From a virus, in IMG/VR virus record IMGVR_UViG_3300021376_000356, positions 1 through 23,861 of that record: 23,861 bases of DNA; one strand, 5' to 3'. The translations under genes were made by a program, and so were the position numbers. Shown piece by piece: positions 2,170 through 19,803 of this stretch; position 1 is the stretch's first letter, and every line of letters starts with the position of its first letter. The notes beneath the pieces are model-generated. The model was not told the DNA's origin. It searched no databases and worked only from the letters and a program-made list of their open reading frames with translations.

Positions 2170-4578
2170 TTAAAGTCTTTGTCCGTACGCAAAATTATTT
2201 CTTGTACTTTGTTCACTTGCTATAGCAATTCCTGTTGTAACTTTTTGCCCGTCAAGATATGCATTAGCTCGTATTTTTCCAGAATTCATATCTTGTCTTA
2301 ATTTTTTCATTTCATCAACTAATACTCCAATAGCTTGTGTAGCTCCACCACCCAACGGCATAGTTGCCATAGCAGATAATTGAGAACCTCTGTTCAATCT
2401 ATCTACAACATTCGGTCCCATAGCAACTTGGTCATTTCTTGTTCCTTGATATATTCCACCTTCAGATGTAGATATAACCGTACCACCGCCAGCACTTGGA
2501 GCGCCCACCGCCATATCACCAACTTTTGTACTAGCACTACCCATCAAACTCATTAATCCTGCAATCGTTCCTACTGATAAAGCCGCACCTATTATACCAA
2601 ATTTTGCATTACCAGCATAAATTTTCGCAATAGACTTTTTGAGTTCCATTTTGGCTGCTTTTTTACTCAAAATATACATTGTTGTTAATCCTGCTATAAT
2701 TGCTGGAAATAATCCTGGTATAAAATTTAAAACTTTAAAAATAAACCCAAACACACTACCTATCATTGTAATAAGCGGTGCCAATCCTTCCATTAAAGGT
2801 ACAAATCCAGTTGCCAAAGCTGCGGTAATTCCTTTAAATGAATTTTCCATTTGCGTTACAGCATCTGCAATTTGTTGTTGTTTTTCTAATTCTTTCACTT
2901 TATCTTTAAGTTGAGAATCAGTCATATCGGTAAGGGTTAATCCCTTATCCATAGCATCTGCAACTAATTTCTTTTGCTCATCACTTAATCCAACTAAACG
3001 CTCTTGCATTGTAAGTTGTTTAGTAATTTCTTCAACGGTCATTCCTGCAGCATCCGCTAAAGCTCTTTGTGTGAAAATATCTTTATCTCTAAAATCACCA
3101 GTTCTTTGTACCTGTCTTAAAATTTCTTTTTGTGCATCAGCATGTCTATCAGCATATGCCAAAGCTCTGGCTTGAGATAAATTAAATTGTCCACCTACAA
3201 AAGTTGCTGCAACTAATTCTTTCTCAATACCTTCTTCAAAATCCAAAAGCTTTTCAGTAGATGTAACAACACTTTTTATATTAGTACCTAATCTTCTTGC
3301 TTCAACCGCTGCTTTTGCCAAAGCATTTATATCACCTCTAAAATATTTGTAAGATTCTTCCGCGGATTCTGCTATATCTTTAAATAATTGAGAAGGTGCA
3401 ACGCCAGACATTTTTGCCATATCAATAAGTTGCATTGATACATTTTGTGCAGTTTCAGCACTCAATCCGGCCATATTTTGGAATATCATATTAACCGCGG
3501 CGGCATCGGATTGTGCAATAGCAAAGTTTTTATTCATTACAGTTAATGAAGAAACTATTCCTTCACTAAATGGTATTGCATCACCAAACTCTTTTTTAAG
3601 AGCAGACACACTATCATATACATCTTCTGCTTCAACTCCTAATGCAGCGAATTCATTTTTAATACTTTTTACCTGAGCATCAATTTCTTTAGTTTGGTCT
3701 GCGGTAAGTCCCGTTTCTTGTCTAAATTTTTTCTGAGCCGCACTTAATTCAGTAAATTGGCTAATTGCAAGTGCAAGAATTCCACCCAATATCACTATCG
3801 GTCCTAAACTTTTTGCAGTTGCTTTTACTACATTTCCAATACCTGAAACAATACTTTGTAAACCTTCTGGTAGAGCATTATATAAACCCGTAGTTTGTGC
3901 ACTTATTTCTCTATACCTCTCAGCCTGTTTTGTAAGGGCTTCATTTCTTTCATATATTTCCTGCGCTAATTTCCTATCTTCTTCCGATAATCCCGTTAAT
4001 GATGCTTGAAATTCTAATCTTCTTTTTACTTCATCATTTATACCAAATAAATTATCTCTTTCGCTACCAGCCAATTCCGCTGCTTCTATTTGAGTTTGTC
4101 TAACTCCTTCTAATACCTGTCTTCTTGCCTGCAATCCTATCAATTCTTCACCACTAGCATTAATTTCTTGTTTTTTTATCTCTAATATTTTTGCAGTAAT
4201 TGCAGCAAAAGCACCTCCACCTTTTTGTTGAGATACTAAAAGGTTTTTAATAGATGGTGTTAATTTTGAAAATGATGTTCCGTATTCTTCCTGTAAATCA
4301 TTATACGATTGTTGTCTTTTTGCAGCTTCTTCCCAAAAATCAGCATATTCATCAACTTCATCTTTTATATCTTGTATTCCCTCAAGTTCTTTAGCTAGAT
4401 TATCAAGATGGTCTTTATCTTTCTGATTTCTTTTTTCTAAACGTTTTATCTCATCTCCACCAGCAACAGCAATACGTTTATTCCTCTCTTCAATGCGTTG
4501 TAATATTTCATCACGCTCTTTGAGAAGTTTATTCTGTTTTTCTAATTCTTCCGGTGTAAGATTTCTAACGTCTGCCAT
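2170..4578 (-). CDS. Tail tape measure protein (T4 gp29-like role)
   Basis: This 802-residue protein has tape-measure character. Residues 1-80 are a highly charged heptad-rich coiled coil (LLKERDEILQRIEERNKRI), with further helical segments to about 250. A hydrophobic segment LGPIVILGGILALAISQF lies near 257-275, a long alpha-helical middle follows, and strongly hydrophobic helices lie near 590-640 (ITMIGSVFGFIFKVLNFIPG) and 656-680. The last part is a Gly/Ser-rich linker and a short terminal domain ending in AYGQRL. Tape measures set tail length, occupy the tube lumen and leave with the DNA, and membrane-active helices are usual. It lies directly downstream of the predicted tail chaperones (gp26-like gene and its extension, 77-residue gene) and upstream of the gp48-like tube cap, which is the usual position. 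Whether it is homologous to gp29 or only analogous cannot be seen. Confidence 0.85.
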   Translation of the reverse strand: MADVRNLTPEELEKQNKLLKERDEILQRIEERNKRIAVAGGDEIKRLEKRNQKDKDHLDNLAKELEGIQDIKDEVDEYADFWEEAAKRQQSYNDLQEEYGTSFSKLTPSIKNLLVSQQKGGGAFAAITAKILEIKKQEINASGEELIGLQARRQVLEGVRQTQIEAAELAGSERDNLFGINDEVKRRLEFQASLTGLSEEDRKLAQEIYERNEALTKQAERYREISAQTTGLYNALPEGLQSIVSGIGNVVKATAKSLGPIVILGGILALAISQFTELSAAQKKFRQETGLTADQTKEIDAQVKSIKNEFAALGVEAEDVYDSVSALKKEFGDAIPFSEGIVSSLTVMNKNFAIAQSDAAAVNMIFQNMAGLSAETAQNVSMQLIDMAKMSGVAPSQLFKDIAESAEESYKYFRGDINALAKAAVEARRLGTNIKSVVTSTEKLLDFEEGIEKELVAATFVGGQFNLSQARALAYADRHADAQKEILRQVQRTGDFRDKDIFTQRALADAAGMTVEEITKQLTMQERLVGLSDEQKKLVADAMDKGLTLTDMTDSQLKDKVKELEKQQQIADAVTQMENSFKGITAALATGFVPLMEGLAPLITMIGSVFGFIFKVLNFIPGLFPAIIAGLTTMYILSKKAAKMELKKSIAKIYAGNAKFGIIGAALSVGTIAGLMSLMGSASTKVGDMAVGAPSAGGGTVISTSEGGIYQGTRNDQVAMGPNVVDRLNRGSQLSAMATMPLGGGATQAIGVLVDEMKKLRQDMNSGKIRANAYLDGQKVTTGIAIASEQSTRNNFAYGQRL

Positions 4579-4586
4579 TTATAAAA

Positions 4587-4820
4587 TTATTTTACAAAAC
4601 CGTGCTTTAGCAAGTATGCATAAATTTCAGGATCATTTTTTTTAACTTTATCCAAATAATCTTTTGATTTTGCATCAATTGCATCAATTTTTGCCTGCAG
4701 TTGTTTTAACACAGGATCATTATCAATTATTTTTTGTAATTTTTCCGGTGTCCTTTTGGATTTAAACAAAGTCCAAAATTCATTTATATTTGCTTCAGAT
4801 AATTTATATTTTTTTTCCAT
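4587..4820 (-). CDS. Small helical protein of unknown function upstream of the tape measure
   Basis: This is a 77-residue, Lys/Asp-rich, probably all-helical protein (MEKKYKLSEANINEFWTLF at the N-terminus, KNDPEIYAYLLKHGFVK at the C-terminus). It has no signal peptide or membrane segment. It starts 27 bases after the conserved TATTTATA motif and 8 bases before the tape-measure start, so it is the first gene of the tape-measure operon. I do not recognise a family. The position between a gp26-type protein and the tape measure, and the small acidic/basic helical make-up, fit a tail-assembly chaperone or a baseplate-hub helper. That role is inference. The ATG chosen is the only good start after the terminator and promoter motif. 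Confidence 0.75.
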   Translation of the reverse strand: MEKKYKLSEANINEFWTLFKSKRTPEKLQKIIDNDPVLKQLQAKIDAIDAKSKDYLDKVKKNDPEIYAYLLKHGFVK

Positions 4821-4847: not shown

Positions 4848-4856
4848 TATAAATAT
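4848..4856 (-). promoter_or_regulatory. Conserved TATTTATA motif, probable phage late promoter element
   Basis: The minus strand reads ATATTTATA. The 8-mer TATTTATA ends 27 bases before the ATG of the 77-residue gene and lies just after the terminator at 4862-4910. The same exact 8-mer is found upstream of five other genes in the window. On the plus strand it reads TATAAATA, identical to the T4 late promoter core but facing away from the genes. Promoter function is inferred from position and repetition. Confidence 0.55.
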
Positions 4857-4861
4857 CTTAT

Positions 4862-4910
4862 AAAAGAAAAAGTTAGGTGTTGGTAACATATCTACCTATA
4901 CCTAACTTTT
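4862..4910 (-). terminator. Rho-independent terminator after the gp26-like gene and its extension
   Basis: On the minus strand an 11-base arm AAAAGTTAGGT (4910-4900) pairs perfectly with ACCTAACTTTT (4878-4868), and TCTTTTA follows. The 21-base loop contains an additional short inner pairing GGTA/TACC. The stop codon of the out-of-frame extension (4894-4892) lies inside the hairpin loop, so the hairpin overlaps the end of that reading frame. The conserved promoter-like motif of the next gene begins 12 bases further on. Confidence 0.7.
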
Positions 4911-5113
4911 GAAGCTCCTGTGCTTTTTTGCGCCCTTTTTGCTTCTTCGTTTTCTTTCTTTTTAGACTCCACCAACTTATTATAGTAAAATATTCTTAAA
5001 TATGTTGGCATTTTGTAGAGCTCCATCATAGAAAATCCGTTACTATACTCAACCATTTCAAAGATTTGAGTATGAAGATTATAACTATGATTCTTCGGAA
5101 GGCCAAAAAAAGT
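4892..5113 (-). CDS. Out-of-frame C-terminal extension of the gp26-like gene, probably reached by ribosomal frameshift
   Basis: A second frame is open from just after a TAA at 5116-5114 to a TAG at 4894-4892. It overlaps the end of the gp26-like frame by about 26 bases, which include a T7 run. After the T run it encodes 70 residues (GLPKNHSYNLHTQIFEMVEY, then SNGFSMMELYKMPTYLRIFY, then a Lys/Glu-rich helix ending KVRYR). The pattern of an aromatic, Gly-Phe-Ser, Met-Pro-x-x-Leu-Arg-x-Phe-Tyr motif and a charged helix looks like a conserved small T4-type tail assembly protein rather than chance. Entry could be a +1 or -2 shift on TTT-TTT-T, giving a fusion of about 320 residues. Alternatives are independent initiation (the first in-frame ATG is at 5056, giving 54 residues) or a one-base sequencing error in the T run that splits one gene. 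No good Shine-Dalgarno precedes the internal ATG. Confidence 0.7.
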   Translation of the reverse strand, partial: TFFGLPKNHSYNLHTQIFEMVEYSNGFSMMELYKMPTYLRIFYYNKLVESKKKENEEAKRAQKSTGASKVRYR

Positions 5114-5849
5114 TTACGCCCATTGGAATGGGCACCACCTCCACTTCTCCATCGTCATGCGTATATTCAAATACCATGTTCATATCCGGAGCTATTTTTT
5201 TAACGTATTCTCTAAAAGCTTTACTATCTTTAGCCAAAAATGAATTACTGATAAATTTATTTATATATCCTAAATCAGAATTACCATCAACCGATTTTAT
5301 CATGTACCTAAGACGTGTTGTAATTTCAAAAGAACTATCCTTATTTAATTTTTCTAAAGCCTGTATATCTCTATCAATCAATTTTTCATCTCCGTGTGTA
5401 AGTAACTTAAACTTAATAACATTTTTACCTACCGGTGTAGTAAACTCAAATTCGTTTTTATTATTTAACAAACTATAATCTATTTCTCTTACACCAACTT
5501 TAGATAAATCCACATTAGTTTCTAAAGTAGCACTTTTCTTTTTAGAATAAAAAGTTACTTGATAATCACTACCATAACCCAATAATCTAGTTGCTAAAAT
5601 AATTGCGTTTTTATCACCCAATGTAATATCATCAATATTTACATTATCTACTACAATTGATTCAAAAAGTTTATCCAATACGATACCTTTTTTAATAAGA
5701 TTAGCGGAAGAAAGTATATCTTCTTCTTTAGCAGTCATATATTTTATTGTAATTCTGCCGGATGATAGTGGGTTATCTTTTGGATAAATTAACCCTTTTG
5801 ATGGAAGGTCTAACACTTCCGTTGGAAAATCAAAGTTTTTTTCACTCAT
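5085..5849 (-). CDS. T4 gp26-like baseplate hub / tail assembly protein (zero-frame product)
   Basis: The 254-residue protein starts FPTEVLDLPSKGLIYPKDNP and contains the signature IKYMTAKEEDIL followed by LIKKGIVLDKLFESI (residues about 35-65). This is the pattern of the T4-type baseplate family to which gp26 belongs, widespread in T4-like phages. A middle beta-rich part and a C-terminal helical part (LRYMIKSVDG, AFREYVKKIAPDMNM) follow, ending FFWPSEES. The family is usually annotated as a baseplate hub subunit. Because it precedes the tape measure and overlaps a frameshifted extension, it may instead or also act as the tail assembly chaperone (a G/GT-like pair); this is inference. It starts 21 bases after a TATTTATA motif, itself placed directly after a strong terminator, so it begins its own transcript. 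No clear Shine-Dalgarno is seen. Confidence 0.8.
   Translation of the reverse strand: MSEKNFDFPTEVLDLPSKGLIYPKDNPLSSGRITIKYMTAKEEDILSSANLIKKGIVLDKLFESIVVDNVNIDDITLGDKNAIILATRLLGYGSDYQVTFYSKKKSATLETNVDLSKVGVREIDYSLLNNKNEFEFTTPVGKNVIKFKLLTHGDEKLIDRDIQALEKLNKDSSFEITTRLRYMIKSVDGNSDLGYINKFISNSFLAKDSKAFREYVKKIAPDMNMVFEYTHDDGEVEVVPIPMGVNFFWPSEES
5105..5111 (-). other. T7 slippery run, candidate +1/-2 ribosomal frameshift site
   Basis: The minus strand reads AAC TTT TTT TGG in the gp26-like frame. A peptidyl Phe-tRNA on the second TTT can re-pair perfectly with TTT after moving one base forward or two bases back. Either move puts the ribosome in the frame that is open to 4892. The site lies in the short overlap between the stop of the extension frame (5116-5114) and the stop of the zero frame (5087-5085). 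A homopolymer is also where a sequencing or replication indel is most likely. Confidence 0.5.
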
Positions 5850-5870: not shown

Positions 5871-5878
5871 TATAAATA
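5871..5878 (-). promoter_or_regulatory. Conserved TATTTATA motif, probable phage late promoter element
   Basis: TATTTATA on the minus strand (TATAAATA on plus) lies 21 bases upstream of the gp26-like start and about 20-30 bases downstream of the terminator that follows the tail-tube gene. It is the second of six identical intergenic copies. Coding-strand context is TGTATTTATATATACAAAAA. Confidence 0.55.
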
Positions 5879-5899
5879 CATAAAATAAAAAAAATTGAA

Positions 5900-5932
5900 A
5901 ATAAAAAAGGGATACTTTTGGTATCCCTTCTT
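5900..5932 (-). terminator. Strong rho-independent terminator after the tail-tube gene
   Basis: A perfect 7-base stem GGGATAC/GTATCCC has a 5-base loop (5909-5927) and is followed on the minus strand by a T-rich run (TTTTTTATTTT). On the plus strand it is also followed by TTC and six T, so it could stop transcription in both directions. It lies 20 bases after the tube stop codon and ends the sheath-tube unit. Confidence 0.9.
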
Positions 5933-6480: not shown

Positions 6481-6489
6481 TATAAATAT
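6481..6489 (-). promoter_or_regulatory. Conserved TATTTATA motif upstream of the tail tube gene
   Basis: The coding strand reads AGATATTTATAAATG, 25 bases upstream of the tube ATG and in the short gap after the sheath stop. I see no terminator hairpin between sheath and tube, so this copy would give an additional internal start and raise tube expression relative to sheath. It is one of six identical copies. Confidence 0.5.
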
Positions 6490-6511
6490 CTACCTTCGTT
6501 ACTTTCCATTA

Positions 6512-8836
6512 TTATGCTGAAAAACTTGCTCCGGTTGGAAGAATGTTGAAATCAATTATAATGAATTCTGCAGTCTTCGTAGGTTGTAAGTAAATAGCTC
6601 CCGCTAAAATGTTTCTATCAATTACATCAGGAGTATTGTTTGTTTCATCCATTACAACATTAAATGCGTACAAACCCTGTCTTTGTTGAATGTTTTCCAG
6701 ATATGGGTTTACAGTATTAATAAATCTATTTCTTGTTTCAGAAGTGTTTTGTTCAAATACTAAATAACGAGATGTAGATGCTATAAATTTCTTAACTGCA
6801 ATCAATAATCTTCTTACATTGATTCTATCCAAAGCTGATGCTTTATCTTGTAAAGTTTTTTGACCAAATGCTACAATACCTTGTCCAGGAAATGCCGCAA
6901 TAGGATTTACTTTGTTTTCATACAGTGTATCTCTTTCAGAATGTGTCAATCTATTTAATACACTAACTGCGCCTACAATACCACCTCTATTCAAACCAGC
7001 AGGTGCAAACCATTCTGCTGCCAATCTATCACTACTTGCATAAACAGCAGGTAATAATACTGATGGTGGAACGGTTGTTAATTTATTTGTATTAACATCA
7101 ATTGTTTTCATCCAAGGATAATATGTTGCTACATAGTTTGAATCAACTGAATTTGCTTGTTCAGTTGCAGTTGTAATAGATGCATCATAGTCAGTAAAAT
7201 CAGCAATATAGAAACAATCTTGTCTATCTTCACACATATCAATTAATTTCTGAGTAACTGCTGGGTGAAGTTCCCTGATAATACCAGGAGCTACTACCAT
7301 ATTGATATCATATTCATCGGGATTAGAAAGTGCATTAATACCTTTAACATATGCTTGTGAACCCGCAGATGCTAAAGTTGAACAATTCAATCCTTGATTA
7401 TTAGCTGGTCCCCAATCTGCATCTCCGGCTTTAGCTTTTACTATAATTGGATTTACACCATCAAAACCACCTTGTAATGCTACTAAAAATTGTCTCTTAA
7501 CCATATCAGATGTTGCAGAACCTGTCATTTGATATGCCAATTGTGAATCAAATGCAAATGTAGTATTTACTCCTACCCCTGCACTTGCCGGTAATGGTTT
7601 TAAATATTGAGTGTTATCTAATAATGCTGCTACGCTTTCGTAATCAAATCCAGAATAATATTTTGGAGATGATGATGTATTTTCAGCAGAGCCAGTTTGA
7701 TAAATTACTTTAGGTACTAAATTTGGATTAGATAATCTTACAGGATTAGTATAAGCACCATGTCCAAAAGGTGCTGCTGATATTGGGAATGAGCCTGGTG
7801 CGGAAACTTCAACTCTTATATTGAGAGATTTGTTACTATAATCACCATTTTCAGTAATTTTACCGAATTGGTCAATTGTAAAATATCTGTCACCAATAAC
7901 TCTTGCAATATATCTAGGAGATGCTGGGTCTAAGTTTACATTACCAAATTGTTCAATAACACTTTTTGATTTATCAGTATCACCATATGTTCTTAATGTT
8001 ACTGTAAATGTTGAGTAATCAGTTGAACCATCTTCACCTGCGGCTTTTACATTTGAAATACCAATTTTATATTTCTTATTATAAACTTCACCTACTCCGA
8101 TTGTATGGAAACGGAAAAGGTCATATCTTTCACCACTTATCAATTGAGATTGTATATAAGGAGTTGATGCTGCCAAAGCTTCATCTGTATAATCTTGGTC
8201 AGGAAGTATAGAATGTGAAATTTGGGAAAATGTATCCGATACTGGAAATAAAGATGCACTATGTTCATAATAGATATATCCATAAGCATTTTTAACTCCA
8301 AATGGAGATTCACCAAATACATCTTTTAAGTCATTTGTATCAGAAGGAAGAATAGATGCGGAAATTCCAGCGTTTGGATTATTTAATCCGCCAAATTCAT
8401 TTCCTTTAAGTACAAAACTACCTTTCACTGCTTGATTATCTACAATACTACCAGTAGAAATAATTGCTTGATAAGTAGAACCTACTTTAGTGTTATATAA
8501 TACTCCTATTAATTTAACTCCAAAACCACTACCACTAGCAAATACGCCTAATGGTCCTTTTTGTGTATATCCTTCAGTACCAGCTATTCTTACAATAGTA
8601 GCAGTACTAGCTTCTCTAAGATAATTCTGAACTGCATACTCTGTATAAAAAGTTCCATCCGGTACTCCGAATATTGTTTCAAATTCCGTTTGTGAACTTA
8701 CGATTGTAGGAACAAACGAAGGTCCTTGTTTAAAAGGTCCTATAAACGCCGCTCCAATTTCACCAATTCCTTGAGCTAAGAAGGAAAGGTCATTTTCTCT
8801 CGTAAATACGCCTGGTGATACTATTCTTTCTGCCAT
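6512..8836 (-). CDS. 18: Contractile tail sheath protein (T4 gp18-like)
   Basis: The 774-residue protein has hallmarks of contractile sheath proteins. The N-terminus is MAERIVSPGVFTRENDLSFL, followed by GEIGAAFIGPFKQGPSFVPT and VQNYLREASTATIVRIAGTE (about residues 25-85). The conserved C-terminal domain (about 590-774) contains AAEWFAPAGLNRGGI, IAAFPGQGIVAFGQKTLQDK, ALDRINVRRLLIAVKKFIAS and the terminal strand AEFIIIDFNILPTGASF. The two end domains carry the handshake strands that link neighbouring subunits. The long middle (about 100-520) is the variable outward-facing insertion, which explains the length over T4 gp18 (659). A good GGAG Shine-Dalgarno (8847-8844) lies 7 bases before the ATG. 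A terminator and two overlapping TATTTATA motifs lie upstream, so this gene starts a transcript that continues into the tube gene. Confidence 0.96.
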   Translation of the reverse strand: MAERIVSPGVFTRENDLSFLAQGIGEIGAAFIGPFKQGPSFVPTIVSSQTEFETIFGVPDGTFYTEYAVQNYLREASTATIVRIAGTEGYTQKGPLGVFASGSGFGVKLIGVLYNTKVGSTYQAIISTGSIVDNQAVKGSFVLKGNEFGGLNNPNAGISASILPSDTNDLKDVFGESPFGVKNAYGYIYYEHSASLFPVSDTFSQISHSILPDQDYTDEALAASTPYIQSQLISGERYDLFRFHTIGVGEVYNKKYKIGISNVKAAGEDGSTDYSTFTVTLRTYGDTDKSKSVIEQFGNVNLDPASPRYIARVIGDRYFTIDQFGKITENGDYSNKSLNIRVEVSAPGSFPISAAPFGHGAYTNPVRLSNPNLVPKVIYQTGSAENTSSSPKYYSGFDYESVAALLDNTQYLKPLPASAGVGVNTTFAFDSQLAYQMTGSATSDMVKRQFLVALQGGFDGVNPIIVKAKAGDADWGPANNQGLNCSTLASAGSQAYVKGINALSNPDEYDINMVVAPGIIRELHPAVTQKLIDMCEDRQDCFYIADFTDYDASITTATEQANSVDSNYVATYYPWMKTIDVNTNKLTTVPPSVLLPAVYASSDRLAAEWFAPAGLNRGGIVGAVSVLNRLTHSERDTLYENKVNPIAAFPGQGIVAFGQKTLQDKASALDRINVRRLLIAVKKFIASTSRYLVFEQNTSETRNRFINTVNPYLENIQQRQGLYAFNVVMDETNNTPDVIDRNILAGAIYLQPTKTAEFIIIDFNILPTGASFSA

Positions 8837-8893: not shown

Positions 8894-8907
8894 TATAAAT
8901 ATAAATA
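8894..8907 (-). promoter_or_regulatory. Two overlapping TATTTATA motifs upstream of the sheath gene
   Basis: The minus strand reads TATTTATATTTATA: two exact TATTTATA copies overlapping by two bases (8907-8900 and 8901-8894), 57 bases before the sheath ATG and directly after the terminator that closes the preceding gene. This is the only doubled copy and it belongs to the most abundantly needed tail protein. The 56-base leader is the longest of the six. Confidence 0.55.
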
Positions 8908-9415: not shown

Positions 9416-9424
9416 TATAAATAT
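9416..9424 (-). promoter_or_regulatory. Conserved TATTTATA motif upstream of the 140-residue gene
   Basis: The coding strand reads ACATATTTATACATAA, 17 bases before the ATG. Its plus-strand context ttatgtataaatat (14 bases) is identical to the copy at 19795-19803, which supports a conserved element longer than the 8-mer core. Confidence 0.55.
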
Positions 9425-9449: not shown

Positions 9450-9824
9450 TTATTCTTTATTAATAATATTGTAAACCATTTTTTTCAATTCTTCAATTTC
9501 CAAAGATTGTTTTTCAATTATTTCTTGCTGTTCTTTTACAGATTGAATTAATACTGGTACAATTTTTTCTAATTGGACTGTTTTATAGTATTCACCTGTT
9601 ACAGAACCTCCATCACCTAATGCATCAAACGGTGCTTGTTTTACTGCTTGTGGTACAACTTTTTCAACCTCTTGTGCAATAACACCAATATCATGTCTAT
9701 CCATTGGTACAAATCCTAATTCATCAACTAAAGGTTTCCAATCAAAATAAACTCCTCTTAATTGTTCCAATAATGATAATGCGTTTGGAATTGTTACTAC
9801 ATTTTCTTTTAATCTAATATCTGA
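9450..9824 (-). other. Peptidase S74 (intramolecular chaperone) domain of the giant fibre
   Basis: This is the coding segment for residues 3103-3226. In endosialidase-type chaperones, cleavage occurs just before the Ser of the SDxRxK motif. Here that Ser is codon 9824-9822 and the Lys five residues later is present, so the domain looks catalytically intact. The mature fibre would then end after residue 3102 (AYS). The tail of the domain (EQQEIIEKQSLEIEELKKMV) is a heptad-like trimeric coiled coil. Confidence 0.88.
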
Positions 9825-12800
9825 AGAATACGCAATAATGTTACCGGCAGCGTACATATTACCACCACCCATTTCCAGTTGCCATCTATTTGAAGATGCA
9901 GACCATCCACCGATACGAAGCCAGTTATCACCATCTAACCCCATATTAGTTGCCCAAATACCATATTTGTGGAATGATAGGAATGCAGAGTTATTACCGC
10001 CTGCAGTTGCTTGTAAATTCGCAGTACTAGTATTACCGGAATAGTAATTTCTTTCAACCCTAAATTGGAATTGACCATTAGTCTCCGAATAACCACCTAC
10101 TTGACAATGTGCGTAAAATGTTCTTAATTCACCAGAGTTGTTTCCAAAAAAGTAATAAGTATCATTTCTATCATAATACAAATACGATTGGTGATATGAA
10201 CCAAAGATTGTGTTATCATTATGCCAGTTAAGATACGTTGCGTATCCATCACGACAATCCAAATGTAAATTACCATTTGATGTAAAGATACTTGCCCATC
10301 CATCAACTCTGTTATTTGTACCAACTCTTAGATATGCACCCCACCACCAGTTTGGACCATGTAGAGTACCACCTCTCATTCTTAAACCTTGGTTATCGGT
10401 ATTGTGTGGGTCTAAGTAATATCCAGTATCTTGGTTATCATAAAAAATTGGCGCTCTTAACGAACCACCTGCTTCCAAATATTGGTTTACATATACACCC
10501 CAAGGTTGCATTGACATTCTTTCGTTACCAGCCCAATATAGGTAAAGGACTGCTCCACTCATATACCAAATCCAACCCCTAGCATTATCATGAACACCTA
10601 CGTTATCACCCATAGTACTCATATACACATATCTCGAACCTACTGAGTATCCATACCAACCGTTTCTACCACCACCATAAGTTGCTATGTGCCCATAAGA
10701 ACTACCTTCACAAAAGACACTCCAAATACCTTGTCCATAAGATTCCCAATAAACACCAGAACATCCTTGAGGTCTGAACCAGTTGTTTGCTAATACATAG
10801 TGAAGTTGGGATACACCATTTGGGTCAACTCTGTAGGATGTATCGTTTCTATCATAGAAAATAGTACTATCAATTCTACCAACACCATAGATATCATATC
10901 CATAGTGTTCTGAGTGATAGAAGAATCTAATCCATCTATTTGAGTAATAGTTGAGATATATATCATATCCACAGAATGAATCAATATGTAAGTTACCACT
11001 AAGCCAAATACGTCCACAACCATTTCTTGCATGCAAATAGTTATCCGTTCCAATATAGTGTAACTGAGAAGTACCATTAGGGTCTATATAATATCCGGAA
11101 TTATTAGAATCATACATTATTGTTGACCAGAAATCATTTGAGTATTCGTTCAATCCATACATCGCCACTTTATACCAAGGGCGTTTTGAACTCCAATAAG
11201 ATGTCCACCATGCACCACTAATAGGTCCACCAACTAACTGCCATCCATATCCACCATTGTAACAACAAACGTAGTGATGTGCTTGAACACCAACCCAGTG
11301 AGATGTACCGGCAGGTTGGTTAGCTGGGTTACCCCACGTATCAAAGAAACCACTACCCCATTGGAATACCGAAATAAGGTCAGTTGTACCCCAACCCATT
11401 GAACCCACCCAATAGTTAGAATCACCAGTATAATCATTTCTTCTAAAGTTACCTTTGGCTGTTAAACCAATTCTCATTTTAGAATAATCATCAGTACCTT
11501 GCCATCTAGTAGTACCATTACCATCAAAATAGAATGATGTATCGTGGTCATAGTAAATAGAAGCTCTAACGTCAGCGTGTGCATAAACACCATGTGACCT
11601 CATCGACATTCTATCATTACCTGCCCAATATAAATTCAGGTCACCACCACCCATATACCAAATCCAACCCCTAGCGGTATCATGCAATCCGAAGTTATCA
11701 CCCATTGTACTCATTAGAGTATAACGGCTACCCACACCATATCCTCTCCAACCATTTCTACCGCCACCATAAGTTGCAATGTGTCCATAAGGGTTACCCT
11801 CACATTCTGGTGACCAAATACCTCTACCATAAGATTCCCAATAAACACCAGTACAACCTTGTGGTCTGAACCAATTATTTGCGAGTACATAGTGAAGTTG
11901 CGATGTACCGTTAGGGTCTACATAATACCCAGTATTATTTCCATCATACCAAAAACCTGCATAGAATGTGCCACCACCAATGTTTCTATCGTACAACATT
12001 ATCTCATACCAAGGATATGTTGTACCACCCCATTTACCTCTTAACCACCAACGGCTTTGAGCATCATGTGCACCTACCATTTGCCAACCATATGCTGCTC
12101 CACCATCAGATGTTGCATAGTGTTGGCCGGAAACTATACCTTGAGCGTGAATGTATCCACCACCTTGAGGGTGTGCAGTACCACCGCCCCAAATATCCCA
12201 TCCCGCAAAACCAGACTTCCATGCATTATCCCAGTTTCCAGCAGAAGTTCCCCATCCAAAAGTACCCGTCCAATAATTTACATCACCTGTATAATCAAAT
12301 CTAGGAGTAATCCAATGATACCCCCTATTCATAGCTGCATGTGTTCTTTGGGTGAATCGTGCCAAGCTTGAAGTACCATTAGGGTCTACATAATAACCAC
12401 CATCTTGCCTATCGTAATAGATGTTGGCGTAAGGAGTTGCAACAATTTGTAAATTATTTCCAGTAGATTCACCCAAATACATTGTCATAGATGAGTTATT
12501 ACCATACCAGTGTTGTGATTCAACTACATATGCTGAGAAGTCCCAACGAGGCTCATTGTTTACGTTATTTACTAATTTAATTCTATTTGTTACATCATAG
12601 TTTCTACGAGATGTACTAGCTGGGTCATCATAATATCCTGTATTATTTGAGTCATAGAATATAGGACTGTATAAAGCTGCTGTTGAAAATATTGCTCCGG
12701 TTGTATAGATACCTCCATTCATTTGCAACCTAGTGTATGTTGTACCATTGTTTCTTAATGCGATAACATGAGGGTCACCAGGTAAGAATGTACTACTAGC

Positions 12801-15800
12801 ATATTCATATCCTAATCCGTACATATTACCGATTGGCCAGCTTTCACCAATAGTCCAAATTACTTTAGATGCTGTACCACTACTATTGTAATCACCCATC
12901 ATACCACCATTATTTCTAGATACCCAATAGTTATCGTAATATCCTCTACCAAAGTGATAAGATACGTTCATTACAGTTGTACCATTACCATCAAATCTAT
13001 AAGTTGTATCATTACCATCATAATAAATTGGTGCATACATTGCTCCCAATCCTTGTACATAATCATGTCCTATAATCCAACCATCAACTCTAAGATTTAG
13101 GTTACCACTATCTGAACTCATACGGAATTCACCTTGTGCTCCTATAACGTCAATACCAGATTGAGAATCCCAATGCGTATTGGTTCTAAATCTCATAGTA
13201 CCACCATTAACATAAGGCATTCTTATTTCAGAACTAAAGTCACCAAAGAATGCGGAGTTTGTATCGTAGAATATAGGTGCTTGAACATAGTTTACACCAT
13301 AAATGTCTCTACTTCTAAGTATTTGCAGGTCACCACTAATATATGAATAGGTATCACTTTCAATATTTGCAGTATATCCTTCTGCAACATCCATTACTCC
13401 ATCATAATATGCACCATTTTGTATTTTACGAAGTACAACTTGTCCATATGACCAAGATGATGAACCATTACCAATTACAATACAATACTTACCATCTTTA
13501 ACACCAACTCTTACAGGTTTATCAGTATATCCAACTACGTTTGCATTAAAGTTATACCAATAACCATTCCAGTTATGTCCACCAACTATTATAGTTGCTG
13601 CAGCATTTCCATTATATTCATAAATGTCAATTACAGCATGTATCATTCCATAGTTACCAATTCCACCAGGAAATTTAATAACCACTGCTCCGGTTGCACC
13701 TGTTGCTCCCCAAACTGCATAAGGTCTACCAACTAAGTTTCTTTGTTTAATACCACCTGCGATTCTTAAAGAAGTTGCTGTTGTATTAGGGTCTAAGAAA
13801 TACCCAGTATCATTATAATCATAGAATATATTTGCTCTTACATCACCAAAATTTGTAGCCGAACCACCACCGGCATTTATACCACCATATAACCAGTTAT
13901 ATCCGGCTGAATAAATACCAGATGGATGCCAAGATGCATTACCCGTACCACCAACGTTACCATTACCTCTATATGAGTATGAATAAACATCATTAAGGTT
14001 TGAAGTACCATTAGGGTCTAAATAATATCCTGTATTATTGTAATCATAAAACGATGTTCCTCTTACTTGTGCTGCTGATGCAAAGTTATTATTTGTCCAT
14101 GTCCAAGACCCACCATAGTTAGGTCCATCTAATTCAAATATTATGTTTGCACTTCTTAACCTCAATCCATAATAACCGGCTAATTGAACCATAGAACCAC
14201 CAAATGGTCCTCCTATATTCGAACCACCCAAACCATACCAAGGTGCGTTATTTACTGTATCACCAAAGTTATTATAAAGAGTAAAATATCTATCAGCAAA
14301 TATATTATTAATTCTTGAGTTTGAATTAGGGTCTACATAATATCCTGTATTATTTAAATCATAGAATATTGGTGATTGCATTGATGCTACTGCATAAAGG
14401 TTACCAGATGTATCACCATACACAACATTACCACCACCACTATTTCTGAATATGAACGACGATGCATATTGGAAGTACCAGTTACTACTATGATATTGAA
14501 TTTTACCCGAAAATTCACCTGTCCATCCTGCCGAGTCTGCCCTCCAATCACCAACCGTTCTTATAGATTGAGTTGATGTTGGGTCCAAATAATAACTAGT
14601 ATTATTTTGGTCATAGAATATTGGTGCTCGCATTGAACCAAACGCAAAAAGGTTAGATGAAGTATCTATGTATCCTCTTTGTGTGTTTCCAGTTACAAAT
14701 TCTATGTAACTACCATCAGAACCTAATGATAAATAATTTGATGAATAAATACCAGGTCTACCCCAAGCTGCTCCTAATCTAACATCACCAACACCATTAC
14801 CCTCTGCATTATTTACTCTAAATCCAGAATCGTTTGTATAAAATTGAACTCTGTTAGATGAACCGCCTCGTAGTACAAACCCACCATTAGCCGGGTCTAT
14901 ATAATAAGAGTTGTTATTAATATCAATAAATGAAGCCCCATATATACTACCACCACTATAAATGTTTCTATTAGTTGCTAAACCAGCGTAAGAGTTAGGG
15001 TCTATTTCTGCAAATGTTGTGGAACCAGGATTACCAGTACCACCATTTGTCAATGTCCAACCACTACTTTGATAGTTATCACTCATTGCAATTCGCAATG
15101 TTCCACCTGAAGTTATGTAAATTTGTAAGAAATGAGTATCGTATGTACCCGTACCTCTTATACGAATATTATTAAATATACCCCCATTACCGTACCAACT
15201 CTTACCCAACATTGTAATTGTAGCAGAACCACCAAATGAAATTCCAGCATTAAACTTCATAGAGCCATGCATAGAACTTTCATAGTCCCATATATGGAAC
15301 GTAGCCATTGCTCTATTACCAGGATTTGTTGCAATAGTCAACCACGTGCCTGCGGTAACATTAATATCTAAAAATTGCTGTACTGCCCAACCACCAACAT
15401 TTAATAAATTTAGGTTTGATGTTGAAGCAGGGTCTATATAATAGCCAGAATTATTTAAATCATAGTATATTGGTGAATAAACCGAATTATTTACATAGAG
15501 TATATTATCAATTCTAACATTCGCATCGCCTTCACCAAATGATGCTATACGAGAACTTAAATCTTCATTATTAAAGATACGGATACCACCATATCCAGGT
15601 TGTGCACCCATACGGATACCAGTGTGCCATCTTAAGTCTAATTTGTTGTAGTTACCACCATAGTTTTCTAAGTTAGTACCAATGTAGTAGTTGTCTGCTG
15701 CATCATTATCGCCACCACCAAGCATTAATCTTACACCAGTTATACTATTATATGCGTTTGCTGAAGTATATCCCCCAATTGTTACTCTCCTTTCATTTGA

Positions 15801-18800
15801 TGGGTTAATGTTTACAGCCCAACTTCCTGGTCCACTTAATAAACCAAATCCGTTTCCATCAAAGTATAGGTAACCTCTTGAACCAGCACTTCTATCAAAA
15901 ATCTGCCAACCATTATCTGAACGAGATTTGATGTATGCTGAGTTATCAGAGAATATACGAGTATCATATGATTGCCAATAAACCCCCGTTGCTCCTTGTG
16001 GTCTAAACCAGTTATCAGCCAATACATAATGTAGTTGAGATGTACCATTAGGGTCTACATAATATCCTGTATTGTTTGAATCATAGAATATAGGAGCTCG
16101 GGCACTGGTTCTAAATTCTACATAACTACCGTCTTGATTAGGATAATTTCTTTGACTCCAATCCCAACTACTACCGTTTACCGCACCTCTTCCACCGTAA
16201 AGATACCAAGCACCGTCTGCTGCTACATGTTGCAATTGATATCCCAAATTACCATTTGTAGCTGTTTGATAGATAGAAGCGTAAGTGCCAGTTACTGTAA
16301 GTGTGGCGTGACCTGATCCAAATGGTGAGCTTCCCCAATCTCCTCTGTAATTTCCATAATAAGTGTTTGTTCTATTAAAAATAGAAGTAGATGCAAAATC
16401 ACCGTAATAACTACTATCATTTGAATCATAGAATATTGGTGCTCTGAAATCACCGTATGATTCCACCGTAGCATTACCTCTAATTACCATATTACGGTCT
16501 CCCGCCAAACCACCATCTCTAAATACAATATCTTCACCACCAGAAGTTGCTATAATAAGATGATTATCATCAGTATCCGTAGCTTGTAAGAATCCCCTTA
16601 ATGAACCCGCTGAAGTATAAAGTTGAATAACATTTCCACTATTAAGATTTATTGTTCCAGTTGATGTAACACCCGCAAAAGTTACCGCATCGGTTGTTCT
16701 AATGTTTTGATTCATTAAGTAAACTTCCGTTGCACCTTGTCCTGTATCAATTGTACCACTAAGAACTACGTTACCATTTACTTGTAATGTATTATCAGCG
16801 TACCATCTATCAGTTGATTCATCCCAATAAAATGAAACGGTTGAAGATGAACCTCTCCTTACTTCTATACCAGCATTTTCAGATGGTGCGCCGGAAGTAA
16901 AATTAGAATTTAATGTGATTATATTATCCGCAAGTAATATTGTTTCTGTATTGACTGTAGTTGTTGTTCCACTTACAGTAAGATTACCACTAATTGTAGC
17001 GTTACCAGTAACTGCCAATGTAGTACCATCAAATGTTAAATTAGATTCAACGGTTGCGTTTGGTGCTGAACCATTTAAGGTGATTACACCATTATCAGTT
17101 GTTCCAGTTAATGATAATAAACCAGATGAACCAGATGTACCTCGTGTGCCAGAACTTCCAGAAGTGCCACTACTTCCAGAACTACCTGATGAGCCAGAAC
17201 TTCCACTACTACCAGAACTACCTGATGAACCGCTACTTCCCGAACTACCAGATGTGCCACTTGTTCCAGAAGAACCAAATCCAGATGAGCCAGATGAGCC
17301 GCTTGAACCACTTGTACCTCGCGTACCAGATGTGCCACTCGTGCCACTCGTGCCATCTTTACCGGATGAGCCACTACTTCCAGAACTACCAGATGTGCCA
17401 CTTGTTCCAGGTTGACCACTACTTCCACTAGTACCAGATGTTCCTGAACTTCCACTACTACCAGATGAACCATCTTTTCCAGATGATCCAGATGTACCTG
17501 AAGAACCTGATGTACCTGAAGAACCAAATCCAGAGGAACCAGACGAACCAGAGGAGCCAGACGAGCCAGACGAGCCGGAACTTCCGCTACTTCCAGAACT
17601 TCCCGATGAACCACTACTTCCAGAACTACCGGAAGAACCCGATACACCAACTCCACCTGTTACCCCACTACTACCAGAGCTGCCACTACTTCCAGATGTG
17701 CCAGAGCTTCCACTTGTTCCTGATGAACCAGAACTTCCAGAACTTCCAGAACTACCGGATGAGCCAGCAATACCAGAAGAACCTCCAGCTCCACTTATTC
17801 CTGATGTTCCTGAACTTCCACTACTGCCAGATGAACCAGATGTGCCACTACTTCCAGAACTACCAGATGAACCGCTACTTCCTGATGTTCCTCCAACACC
17901 TGTAACACCTGATGAGCCGGAACTTCCACTACTTCCAGAGGTGCCGCTAGTTCCAGATGTACCAGAAACTCCACTCGTTCCAGAACTGCCACTTGAACCA
18001 GTTAATCCACTACTTCCACTACTACCAGATGAACCAGATGTGCCACTAGATCCAGATGTTCCATCTTTTCCAGAAGTACCAGAACTGCCACTCGTACCGG
18101 ATGTACCAGATGAGCCACTTGTCCCACTACTTCCTGAACTGCCCGATGTGCCGCTTGTGCCTGCACTACCTGATGTTCCAGAGCTGCCACTTGTACCAGA
18201 TGAGCCACTACTTCCAGAACTACCAGATGAGCCACTACTTCCTGATGAGCCACTACTTCCTGATGAGCCACTTGTTCCCGAACTACCAGAGCTGCCACTC
18301 GTTCCTGCAGAGCCGCTTGTTCCCGAAGTGCCACTCGTGCCAGAACTGCCACTTGTTCCAGATGTGCCACTAGATCCAGATGTTCCAGATGACCCACTTG
18401 TTCCGGAAGTACCAGAAGTACCAGAAGTTGCTGCTGCAAATCTTCTACTAATTCTACCAGTTGTTGTATTTAAAACTAATACCTCATTTGTTGTATTATC
18501 AGTTGGTATTGTATCACCAGTTACTACGATTGAACCACTTATATTTAAACTACCAGTAATTTCTTGTCTATCAGTAACATTATCACCAAATTTATTTGAA
18601 CCGGTTGCGTATATAATTGATGATGAAATAAATGTTGTATGTATTTCAGTCGCTGTAATCTTTCCACCTACAGTAAGGTTATTTGTTACAGCTACATTAT
18701 TCGTAAATGTACCACTTCCAGTTACTATTAAAAATTCATTAATAGTTGTACCTTTATTAATTTCCAAACCCCTATTCGGAGATATTAGTGCTATTGCGGA

Positions 18801-19130
18801 ACCTGATTTGAGTCTATTAATATCACCAATAGATTCTGCTGATATATTTGTAATTAAACTACCATCACCTCTTAAAAATGATGCAGAAACTGAACCAGAA
18901 ACATTTACGGAACCTGTAAATTGAGTATTTGCATTTATTACAATTGGAGAACTTCCAGGTGAATCTATTGTACTTACTTCAATTATTGATGATGAGAATA
19001 CAGCTCCATTGACAACATTTACAGAAAATGGTGAAGCATTAATTACAGGACTTCCGCTAACATGTAGTGATATTACGCTAGAACTTACCTGATTTAATCC
19101 ATTTGGGTCAATACCTAAGAAACTACTCAT
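9450..19130 (-). CDS. Giant tail fibre/adhesin with collagen-like stalk, YYDPN repeats and C-terminal S74 chaperone domain
   Basis: The product has 3226 residues. Residues 1-234 are Ser/Thr/Gly-rich beta segments (VNVSGSVSAS, NLTVGGKITATEI), presumably virion attachment. Residues 235-670 are Gly-X-Y with X and Y mostly Ser or Thr. About 671-790 is a connector (LSLTGTTDNGVITLNG, then TVNTETILLADNIITLNSN and FYWDESTDRWYADN) that recurs in many phage fibres. From about 894 to 2997 there are some 18 copies of APIFYDxNNTGYYVDPNGTS, separated by variable aromatic-rich modules. The C-terminal 124 residues from Ser3103 match the intramolecular chaperone of endosialidase-type fibres (Peptidase S74): SDIRLKENV carries the Ser/Lys pair (Ser3103, Lys3108), followed by GVYFDWK, DIGVIAQEVEKVVPQAV and a final coiled coil. 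This domain trimerises the fibre and then cuts itself off. The protein probably forms the long host-recognition fibre. The start lies 15 bases after the preceding gene. Confidence 0.93.
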   Translation of the reverse strand: MSSFLGIDPNGLNQVSSSVISLHVSGSPVINASPFSVNVVNGAVFSSSIIEVSTIDSPGSSPIVINANTQFTGSVNVSGSVSASFLRGDGSLITNISAESIGDINRLKSGSAIALISPNRGLEINKGTTINEFLIVTGSGTFTNNVAVTNNLTVGGKITATEIHTTFISSSIIYATGSNKFGDNVTDRQEITGSLNISGSIVVTGDTIPTDNTTNEVLVLNTTTGRISRRFAAATSGTSGTSGTSGSSGTSGSSGTSGTSGSSGTSGTSGTSGSAGTSGSSGSSGTSGSSGSSGSSGSSGSSGSSGSSGSSGTSGSSGTSGSAGTSGTSGSSGSSGTSGSSGTSGTSGSSGTSGKDGTSGSSGTSGSSGSSGSSGLTGSSGSSGTSGVSGTSGTSGTSGSSGSSGSSGVTGVGGTSGSSGSSGSSGSSGTSGSSGSSGSSGTSGISGAGGSSGIAGSSGSSGSSGSSGSSGTSGSSGTSGSSGSSGSSGVTGGVGVSGSSGSSGSSGSSGSSGSSGSSGSSGSSGSSGSSGSSGFGSSGTSGSSGTSGSSGKDGSSGSSGSSGTSGTSGSSGQPGTSGTSGSSGSSGSSGKDGTSGTSGTSGTRGTSGSSGSSGSSGFGSSGTSGTSGSSGSSGSSGSSGSSGSSGSSGSSGSSGTSGSSGTRGTSGSSGLLSLTGTTDNGVITLNGSAPNATVESNLTFDGTTLAVTGNATISGNLTVSGTTTTVNTETILLADNIITLNSNFTSGAPSENAGIEVRRGSSSTVSFYWDESTDRWYADNTLQVNGNVVLSGTIDTGQGATEVYLMNQNIRTTDAVTFAGVTSTGTINLNSGNVIQLYTSAGSLRGFLQATDTDDNHLIIATSGGEDIVFRDGGLAGDRNMVIRGNATVESYGDFRAPIFYDSNDSSYYGDFASTSIFNRTNTYYGNYRGDWGSSPFGSGHATLTVTGTYASIYQTATNGNLGYQLQHVAADGAWYLYGGRGAVNGSSWDWSQRNYPNQDGSYVEFRTSARAPIFYDSNNTGYYVDPNGTSQLHYVLADNWFRPQGATGVYWQSYDTRIFSDNSAYIKSRSDNGWQIFDRSAGSRGYLYFDGNGFGLLSGPGSWAVNINPSNERRVTIGGYTSANAYNSITGVRLMLGGGDNDAADNYYIGTNLENYGGNYNKLDLRWHTGIRMGAQPGYGGIRIFNNEDLSSRIASFGEGDANVRIDNILYVNNSVYSPIYYDLNNSGYYIDPASTSNLNLLNVGGWAVQQFLDINVTAGTWLTIATNPGNRAMATFHIWDYESSMHGSMKFNAGISFGGSATITMLGKSWYGNGGIFNNIRIRGTGTYDTHFLQIYITSGGTLRIAMSDNYQSSGWTLTNGGTGNPGSTTFAEIDPNSYAGLATNRNIYSGGSIYGASFIDINNNSYYIDPANGGFVLRGGSSNRVQFYTNDSGFRVNNAEGNGVGDVRLGAAWGRPGIYSSNYLSLGSDGSYIEFVTGNTQRGYIDTSSNLFAFGSMRAPIFYDQNNTSYYLDPTSTQSIRTVGDWRADSAGWTGEFSGKIQYHSSNWYFQYASSFIFRNSGGGNVVYGDTSGNLYAVASMQSPIFYDLNNTGYYVDPNSNSRINNIFADRYFTLYNNFGDTVNNAPWYGLGGSNIGGPFGGSMVQLAGYYGLRLRSANIIFELDGPNYGGSWTWTNNNFASAAQVRGTSFYDYNNTGYYLDPNGTSNLNDVYSYSYRGNGNVGGTGNASWHPSGIYSAGYNWLYGGINAGGGSATNFGDVRANIFYDYNDTGYFLDPNTTATSLRIAGGIKQRNLVGRPYAVWGATGATGAVVIKFPGGIGNYGMIHAVIDIYEYNGNAAATIIVGGHNWNGYWYNFNANVVGYTDKPVRVGVKDGKYCIVIGNGSSSWSYGQVVLRKIQNGAYYDGVMDVAEGYTANIESDTYSYISGDLQILRSRDIYGVNYVQAPIFYDTNSAFFGDFSSEIRMPYVNGGTMRFRTNTHWDSQSGIDVIGAQGEFRMSSDSGNLNLRVDGWIIGHDYVQGLGAMYAPIYYDGNDTTYRFDGNGTTVMNVSYHFGRGYYDNYWVSRNNGGMMGDYNSSGTASKVIWTIGESWPIGNMYGLGYEYASSTFLPGDPHVIALRNNGTTYTRLQMNGGIYTTGAIFSTAALYSPIFYDSNNTGYYDDPASTSRRNYDVTNRIKLVNNVNNEPRWDFSAYVVESQHWYGNNSSMTMYLGESTGNNLQIVATPYANIYYDRQDGGYYVDPNGTSSLARFTQRTHAAMNRGYHWITPRFDYTGDVNYWTGTFGWGTSAGNWDNAWKSGFAGWDIWGGGTAHPQGGGYIHAQGIVSGQHYATSDGGAAYGWQMVGAHDAQSRWWLRGKWGGTTYPWYEIMLYDRNIGGGTFYAGFWYDGNNTGYYVDPNGTSQLHYVLANNWFRPQGCTGVYWESYGRGIWSPECEGNPYGHIATYGGGRNGWRGYGVGSRYTLMSTMGDNFGLHDTARGWIWYMGGGDLNLYWAGNDRMSMRSHGVYAHADVRASIYYDHDTSFYFDGNGTTRWQGTDDYSKMRIGLTAKGNFRRNDYTGDSNYWVGSMGWGTTDLISVFQWGSGFFDTWGNPANQPAGTSHWVGVQAHHYVCCYNGGYGWQLVGGPISGAWWTSYWSSKRPWYKVAMYGLNEYSNDFWSTIMYDSNNSGYYIDPNGTSQLHYIGTDNYLHARNGCGRIWLSGNLHIDSFCGYDIYLNYYSNRWIRFFYHSEHYGYDIYGVGRIDSTIFYDRNDTSYRVDPNGVSQLHYVLANNWFRPQGCSGVYWESYGQGIWSVFCEGSSYGHIATYGGGRNGWYGYSVGSRYVYMSTMGDNVGVHDNARGWIWYMSGAVLYLYWAGNERMSMQPWGVYVNQYLEAGGSLRAPIFYDNQDTGYYLDPHNTDNQGLRMRGGTLHGPNWWWGAYLRVGTNNRVDGWASIFTSNGNLHLDCRDGYATYLNWHNDNTIFGSYHQSYLYYDRNDTYYFFGNNSGELRTFYAHCQVGGYSETNGQFQFRVERNYYSGNTSTANLQATAGGNNSAFLSFHKYGIWATNMGLDGDNWLRIGGWSASSNRWQLEMGGGNMYAAGNIIAYSSDIRLKENVVTIPNALSLLEQLRGVYFDWKPLVDELGFVPMDRHDIGVIAQEVEKVVPQAVKQAPFDALGDGGSVTGEYYKTVQLEKIVPVLIQSVKEQQEIIEKQSLEIEELKKMVYNIINKE
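10138..16447 (-). repeat. Array of about 18 divergent 'FYDxNNTGYYVDPNGTS' repeats in the giant fibre
   Basis: Translated repeats include APIFYDSNNTGYYVDPNGTS, SPIYYDLNNSGYYIDPASTS, ANIFYDYNDTGYFLDPNTTA and STIFYDRNDTSYRVDPNGVS. They run from about residue 894 to 2997, with spacing between copies of roughly 60 to 230 residues. They are protein-level repeats; the DNA has diverged. They probably mark the joints between successive trimeric beta modules of the shaft. Copies at both ends are degenerate (SSYYGDFASTS at the start, TYYFFGNNSG at the end). Confidence 0.85.
10493..12320 (-). repeat. Tandem A-B-A'-B' duplication of fibre modules
   Basis: Within the shaft, module A (about 11980-12320, starting near DYTGDVNYWTGTFGWGT) and module B (about 11583-11950, with HIATYGGGRNGW and ARGWIWYMGGG) are followed by a second pair. 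That pair is A' (about 11150-11450, DYTGDSNYWVGSMGWGT) and B' (about 10493-10857, HIATYGGGRNGW and ARGWIWYMSGA). B and B' are also similar at DNA level. The offset is roughly 1.1 kb (B/B') and 0.85 kb (A/A'), the difference being an inserted segment between A' and B'. Confidence 0.75.
17122..18428 (-). repeat. Gly-Ser/Thr-Ser collagen-like repeat in the giant fibre
   Basis: About 436 residues of uninterrupted Gly-X-Y triplets, almost all GTS or GSS, with rare GKD, GVT, GAG, GFG, GQP and GTR units. Proline is almost absent. It lies between the N-terminal attachment region and the connector. Plus-strand frames across it look like long proline-rich ORFs but are antisense shadows. Confidence 0.92.
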
Positions 19131-19794: not shown

Positions 19795-19803
19795 TATAAA
19801 TAT
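19795..19803 (-). promoter_or_regulatory. Conserved TATTTATA motif upstream of the giant-fibre operon
   Basis: The coding strand reads CAATATTTATACATAAG, 23 bases before the 93-residue gene. The 14 plus-strand bases ttatgtataaatat match the copy before the 140-residue gene exactly. No terminator hairpin separates it from the preceding chaperone-like gene, so readthrough from upstream is also possible. Confidence 0.55.

Follow-up and report, generated by a model that had tools for sequence, protein, structure and literature searches.

Tail assembly in long-tailed phages commonly relies on a G-T frameshift, which is described as conserved "except T4" (PMC5009743). In T4 itself, gp26 and gp51 are listed as hub assembly chaperones, gp51 being required yet absent from the particle (PMC3004832). 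Cyanophage gp51 is described to reach only about 20% of full length, with the first ~200 residues missing (PMC3037559). A further case is SPP1: its tail chaperone gp17.5/gp17.5* involves a presumed −1 shift at UUUUUUC, its tail tube protein gp17.1/gp17.1* a +1 shift (PMC6316719). Here we analyze a locus on a 23,861-nt stretch of viral DNA, referred to in its entirety as the window, whose positions serve as coordinates throughout. Sequence comparison makes it very probable that this locus encodes a G/GT-type tail-assembly chaperone pair, whose longer member would be produced by +1 ribosomal frameshifting here, by −1 frameshifting in cyanophages and by gene duplication in T4. No prior report of this frameshifted gp26/gp51 pair was found in the open-access literature.

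The zero-frame gene (5085–5849, minus strand) encodes 254 aa and terminates as ...GVNFFWPSEES, followed by a TAG stop at 5087–5085. Its predicted product, a gp26-like baseplate-hub/tail assembly chaperone and the putative "G-like" member of the pair, falls into the T4 gp26/gp51 family by its matches to phrog_150 "baseplate hub" (E 5e-9) and Pfam PF12322 T4_baseplate (28.8 bits, above the cut-off of 24.5), and phrog_150 was matched by 20/20 fusion homologues as well. For structure prediction, the zero-frame part and the extension described below were modelled apart. The AlphaFold2 model of the zero-frame protein (pLDDT 90.4) matches gp26-type predicted proteins in BFVD, such as that of SP-15 (E 1e-18), while a Foldseek search of the PDB returned nothing with an E value below 0.001 and hence no solved structure that it resembles.

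The +1 frame contains a TAA at 5116–5114, is open from 5113 and runs past the gp26 stop as an extension of 70 codons plus stop (4892–5104, minus strand; GLPKNHSYNLHTQIFEMVEY...KVRYR from 5104, stop at 4894–4892), the candidate "T-like" domain and probable counterpart of the T4 gp51 C-terminus and of the short cyanophage gp51. Both frames overlap by 29 nt including the zero-frame stop and by 26 nt without it, and a product fusing the gp26-like protein to the extension would measure 317 aa. The initial annotation had proposed exactly this layout, a gp26-like gene with a hidden out-of-frame extension at a T7 run (5111–5105) and an overlap of 26 bases, and its coordinates and frames hold. The modelled extension consists of three helices, the last one long (pLDDT 85); Foldseek with this model gave sub-threshold matches only, and phrog_634, which carries the gp51 name "baseplate hub assembly catalyst", was matched weakly (E 0.2).

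That the extension stays open beyond the gp26 stop, likewise pointed out in the initial annotation, extends to the relatives: the +1 frame is open for at least 120 nt past this stop in 183/187 distinct relatives, the four others being three contig ends and one locus with a deletion (L030). Beyond the stop, the +1 frame has a median open length of 205 nt and the −1 frame one of 32 nt. Of 406 ends of other genes on these contigs, 25 (+1) and 22 (−1) reach 120 nt, so that the +1 extension cannot be attributed to chance. Median dN/dS values of 0.40 for the extension and 0.395 for gp26, which are rough since many pairs approach saturation in dS, accompany each other closely; purifying selection acts on the extension, which evolves like gp26. 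In L030 the deletion cuts the +1 extension short after the gp26 stop, while the five other contigs of this near-identical six-contig group are intact.

Across the T run, the zero-frame codons read AAC TTT TTT TGG CCT, the first four of which form the candidate frameshift site (5103–5114, minus strand). We compared it over 191 distinct junctions, comprising the 80 nearest relatives, two further scans and annotated phages, including Flavobacterium, Microcystis, Rhodothermus, Bacillus and Streptococcus phages and one 484-kb phage. The consensus is YTT/YTT/T(GG or AC), with YTT YTT T present in 188/191 junctions. TTT TTT TGG (133), TTT TTT TAC (26) and TTT CTT TGG (20) dominate, followed by TTT CTT TAC (3), TTC TTT TGG (3), TTT TTT TTC (2) and TTC TTT TAC (1), and single exceptions occur in GXN1 (TTC TTT CGT), LR756508 (TTT CTA TTC) and SP-15 (TTT TTT CAC). 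A single +1 slip in the P-site would account for the 188 sites, where UUU or CUU precedes a U, and for the rest, where UUU precedes a C; LIS04 (TTT TTT AGT) and LR756508 would require the slip at the first F codon.

Codon choice changes abruptly at this position. Synonymous-codon identity amounts to 0.96–1.0 at codons 0–3 versus 0.42–0.68 expected, while codons −2, −3 and −5 show 0.31–0.37 versus 0.41–0.42 expected and synonymous choice over codons −2 to −8 is at or below expectation. Codons frozen at 0–3 and free upstream indicate that selection acts on both frames starting at the FF codons and on a single frame before them. Where the joint carries Leu, the codon is CTT in 23/24 cases (18% gene-wide); where it carries Tyr, it is TAC in 30/30 (26% gene-wide), and CCT follows the site in 184/185. 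The constraints on TAC and CCT correspond to the requirement for Thr or Gly and then Leu in the +1 frame (FFTL, FFGL). The codon before FF ends in T in only 4 loci against 92.4 expected, by which formation of the −1 heptamer U UUU UUU is avoided. A conserved, by its composition shift-prone site stands right at the frame transition.

Upstream of it, an SD-like GGAGG/GAGG tract (5138–5144, minus strand) lies 27–33 nt before the FF codons and is conserved in the +1 clade: GGAG, GAGG or AGGA occurs within −36 to −24 in 137/185 loci, and the codon bin at −30 reaches 185 versus 49.8 expected from synonymous shuffles. This distance is unusual and too far for known SD stimulation. SD-like elements within 21 nt are confined to few +1-clade loci, and no standard +1 stimulator, that is an SD within about 5 nt, an A-site stop codon or a pseudoknot, was found in the clade. 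Folding on either side of the site is weak, with a mean Z of about −0.9 versus −0.4 to −0.5 in control stretches. In the window itself, folding of its own sequence gives a possible hairpin upstream of T7.

In cyanophages and their relatives, the extension lies in the −1 frame in 64/65 distinct junctions, at the same FF position, with T TTT TTC at 64 sites and T TTT TTT at one. The shift site is usually located one codon before the gp26 stop. An SD-like GGAGGG at −16 to −11, about 10 nt upstream of the heptamer, and folding of the sequence that follows downstream (mean Z −2.97) complete what is, judged by these elements, a classical −1 signal. The same −1 arrangement is present in Aeromonas Ah1, Vibrio D482, pf16, PA5oct, Atu_ph07, RAS14 and LR756511; scanning with the protein of RAS14 brought up no relatives. 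A typical cyanophage extension is matched by 565 phage records, a few of which are T4-type phages carrying it as the C-terminus of a full-length gp51. In cyanophage annotation it appears as a separate gp51 (P-SSM2) or is absent (ACG-2014i, S-CAM1), and no joined gp26-gp51 feature was found in the phage records opened. In the Synechococcus phages ACG-2014i (L337, 1200–1380) and S-CAM1 (L338, 1200–1390), a gp51-like extension lies unannotated between gp26 and the next gene. The initial annotation had recommended a profile search for the extension. The sequence alone has no match among annotated phages, and the profile of the window-clade extension matches the cyanophage extension with P 7e-6 and a probability of 84%.

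The cyanophage extension in turn leads to T4. Its profile matches residues 207–245 of T4 gp51 at 2e-8 in a two-protein database, and the C-terminal part of gp51 in Aeromonas phage 25 is likewise hit by the cyanophage extension. A direct comparison of the window-clade +1 extension with T4 gp51 stays below 0 bits, so that the link passes through the cyanophage extension, and a profile of the fusion alignment against the single T4 proteins was uninformative. PF12322 and phrog_150 are matched by both T4 gp26 and T4 gp51. Together with the extension match at the gp51 C-terminus, this gives gp51 the layout of the frameshift product and gp26 that of the short product; by these profile matches, T4 gp51 is a gp26-like domain plus extension, i.e. 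a paralogue. We infer that the T4 pair arose by duplicating and fusing this gene. In the gene tree, T4-type gp26 and gp51 cluster with a support of 87 and fall on the −1 side. At least one change is required for the +1 label, and the tree is compatible with a single +1 clade (p-AU 0.21) without deciding whether +1 had one origin. The initial annotation had missed the gp51 C-terminus match, the −1 shift in relatives and the resemblance of T4 gp26/gp51 to the duplicated form.

From these comparisons, shifting in vivo and its rate may be pictured as follows. Most ribosomes would translate gp26 to its stop and release the 254-aa protein. In a minority, peptidyl-tRNA-Phe paired to the second UUU (5108–5106) within AAC UUU UUU UGG would slip +1 onto the overlapping UUU (5107–5105) before UGG is decoded, and reading would resume at GGC (5104–5102) to yield the 317-aa gp26-gp51 fusion. 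The client proteins can be proposed by analogy with lambda gpG/gpGT, according to which the gp26 domain would coat the tape-measure protein and the extension would recruit a tail or hub component, while neither chaperone product need be in the virion.

Several other explanations of the locus have to be weighed. The extension could be a small gene in its own right, gp51, whose own start is reached by termination-reinitiation, in line with its annotation in cyanophages: P-SSM2 is recorded with gp26 at 6495–7214 and gp51 at 7217–7390, and most members of the cyanophage set do have an ATG just 3′ of the gp26 stop. Even there, however, the heptamer is about 10 nt away from the SD-like element and this ATG about 25 nt. 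In the +1 clade no conserved start codon was found for the extension: 56/175 loci lack any ATG, GTG or TTG before the conserved motif and the first ATG of the window's extension sits within that motif. The constraint moreover covers the shift site and the directly following +1 codons, upstream of any such start. We consider a separate gene unlikely, and the observation that the initial annotation had named as speaking against frameshifting, a separate gene with its own ribosome binding site, was not made in the +1 clade, where no start codon is conserved. Transcriptional slippage, in which RNA polymerase would produce mRNAs one U shorter that are then read normally, draws on the known slipping of RNA polymerase on homopolymers and on T7 being the longest run at 159 tabulated sites. 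Against it stand 29 tabulated sites such as TTT CTT TGG that carry the +1 extension without a T run above 4, and a longer run would favour slippage, yet a preceding T is almost never seen (4 versus 92 expected), which renders this explanation very unlikely. As those 29 sites have no longer run, the pure T run is not essential either, and its role as the key feature in the initial annotation had to be given up.

That annotation had also left the direction of the shift undecided between +1 and −2, and on T7 itself either re-pairing would indeed be open to the P-site tRNA-Phe. The variants TTC TTT TGG and TTC TTT TAC distinguish the two, since their −2 codon is UCU, unreadable by tRNA-Phe, and the P-site re-pairs on UUU only in the +1 direction; CTT TGG furthermore corresponds to a prfB-type CUU_U +1 site with UGG replacing the stop. 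The +1 shift is borne out in this comparison, whereas −2 frameshifting is highly improbable. Since homopolymers are error-prone and the window is a metagenomic contig, an indel from sequencing or assembly could finally have broken one continuous frame. The 80 nearest relatives, viral contigs that are 66–100% identical, all carry exactly T7 and the same +1 frame relation (80/80), the alignment of homologous loci asked for in the initial annotation contains no T6 or T8 copies among these 80, and the isolate genomes Mel-JY01 and RM378 show T7 as well. A continuous frame would also not freeze codon choice at this point alone, leaving it free upstream, and a sequencing error can practically be dismissed. 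Ribosomal +1 frameshifting remains our preferred reading.

The surroundings of the locus agree with a chaperone function. A probable tape-measure protein of 802 aa, the expected client, is encoded at 2170–4578 (minus strand) and was assigned by position and length with a weak match to phrog_1068 tape measure (E 0.079). Between it and the extension lies a small ORF of 77 aa (4587–4820, minus strand), and L030 shows a comparable ORF start after its extension. The order of chaperone gene and tape-measure gene is also annotated in Flavobacterium phage immuto and SP-15, so that gene order in the window and in both phages, along with the comparative evidence, backs the tail-chaperone pair upstream of a tape-measure gene that the initial annotation had suggested. 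In gene order and in the N-terminus shared by the predicted short and extended forms, the locus corresponds to a G/GT pair.

Some further features of the window were noted. In the gap that separates the tail-tube gene from gp26, GGGATACCAAAAGTATCCCTTTTTT (about 5899–5928, minus strand) resembles an intrinsic terminator. TATTTATA occurs in seven minus-strand copies (4848–4855, 5871–5878, 6481–6488, 8894–8907, 9416–9423 and 19795–19802), each 18–65 nt upstream of a gene start, and resembles a promoter motif; its total count is not far above chance, its placement is striking. A protein of 3226 aa (9450–19130, minus strand) combines long TSG/SSG repeats with a Peptidase_S74 chaperone domain at its C-terminus (E 1.5e-16) and is probably a tail fibre. 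A second TSG/SSG repeat ORF of 894 aa with recurring KDGTFFGSSG units (21175–23859, minus strand) leaves the window end.

Taken further, the data allow a broader reading, to which we assign an even chance: one ancestral chaperone gene would give the same two products throughout, the second being made by a −1 shift (cyanophages, vibriophages, several jumbo phages), a +1 shift (window clade) or duplication (T4 gp26/gp51). The direction would be set by the bases flanking the conserved Phe-Phe joint, and the SD-like tract about 30 nt upstream would act as a new +1 stimulator. Opposite shifts at one spot for the same pair suggest how T4 came to two separate genes, and the family in this way addresses the one phage that the literature states as the exception to the widespread G/GT frameshift. 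The present reading also explains why cyanophage gp51 appears truncated, the absent residues being gp26, and would correct the annotation in hundreds of phage genomes. The +1 and −1 loci offer a natural series for studying how ribosomal frameshifting changes direction.

Like lambda gpG/gpGT, the window would pair a short chaperone with a frameshifted longer form, upstream of the tape-measure gene and with the shift shortly before the first frame ends; it differs in that its zero-frame protein belongs to the T4 gp26 family (PF12322) and its proposed shift is +1. T4 gp26/gp51 share the protein family, and the layout of gp51 matches the window's predicted frameshift product, but they are separate genes on opposite strands and involve no frameshift. 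The gp26 of cyanophages and vibriophages with its short "gp51" (baseplate hub assembly catalyst) has the same two parts in the same order and FF codons at the joint; there, however, the extension lies in the −1 frame, U UUU UUC is accompanied by an SD-like element and by structure downstream, and two genes are annotated. The cyanophage −1 heptamer is that of SPP1 gp17.5, UUUUUUC, although the SPP1 proteins are those of a siphophage and its +1 shift takes place at CCC UAA, outside the chaperone gene. In the bacterial prfB gene for release factor 2, a +1 frameshift occurs at CUU UGA by a P-site slip to UUU, with an SD 3–5 nt upstream. The slip proposed here, from CUU or UUU to UUU, is alike, and the CTT TGG sites differ from prfB by UGG in place of UGA, whereas the window clade presents a sense codon in the A-site and has no SD 3–5 nt upstream.
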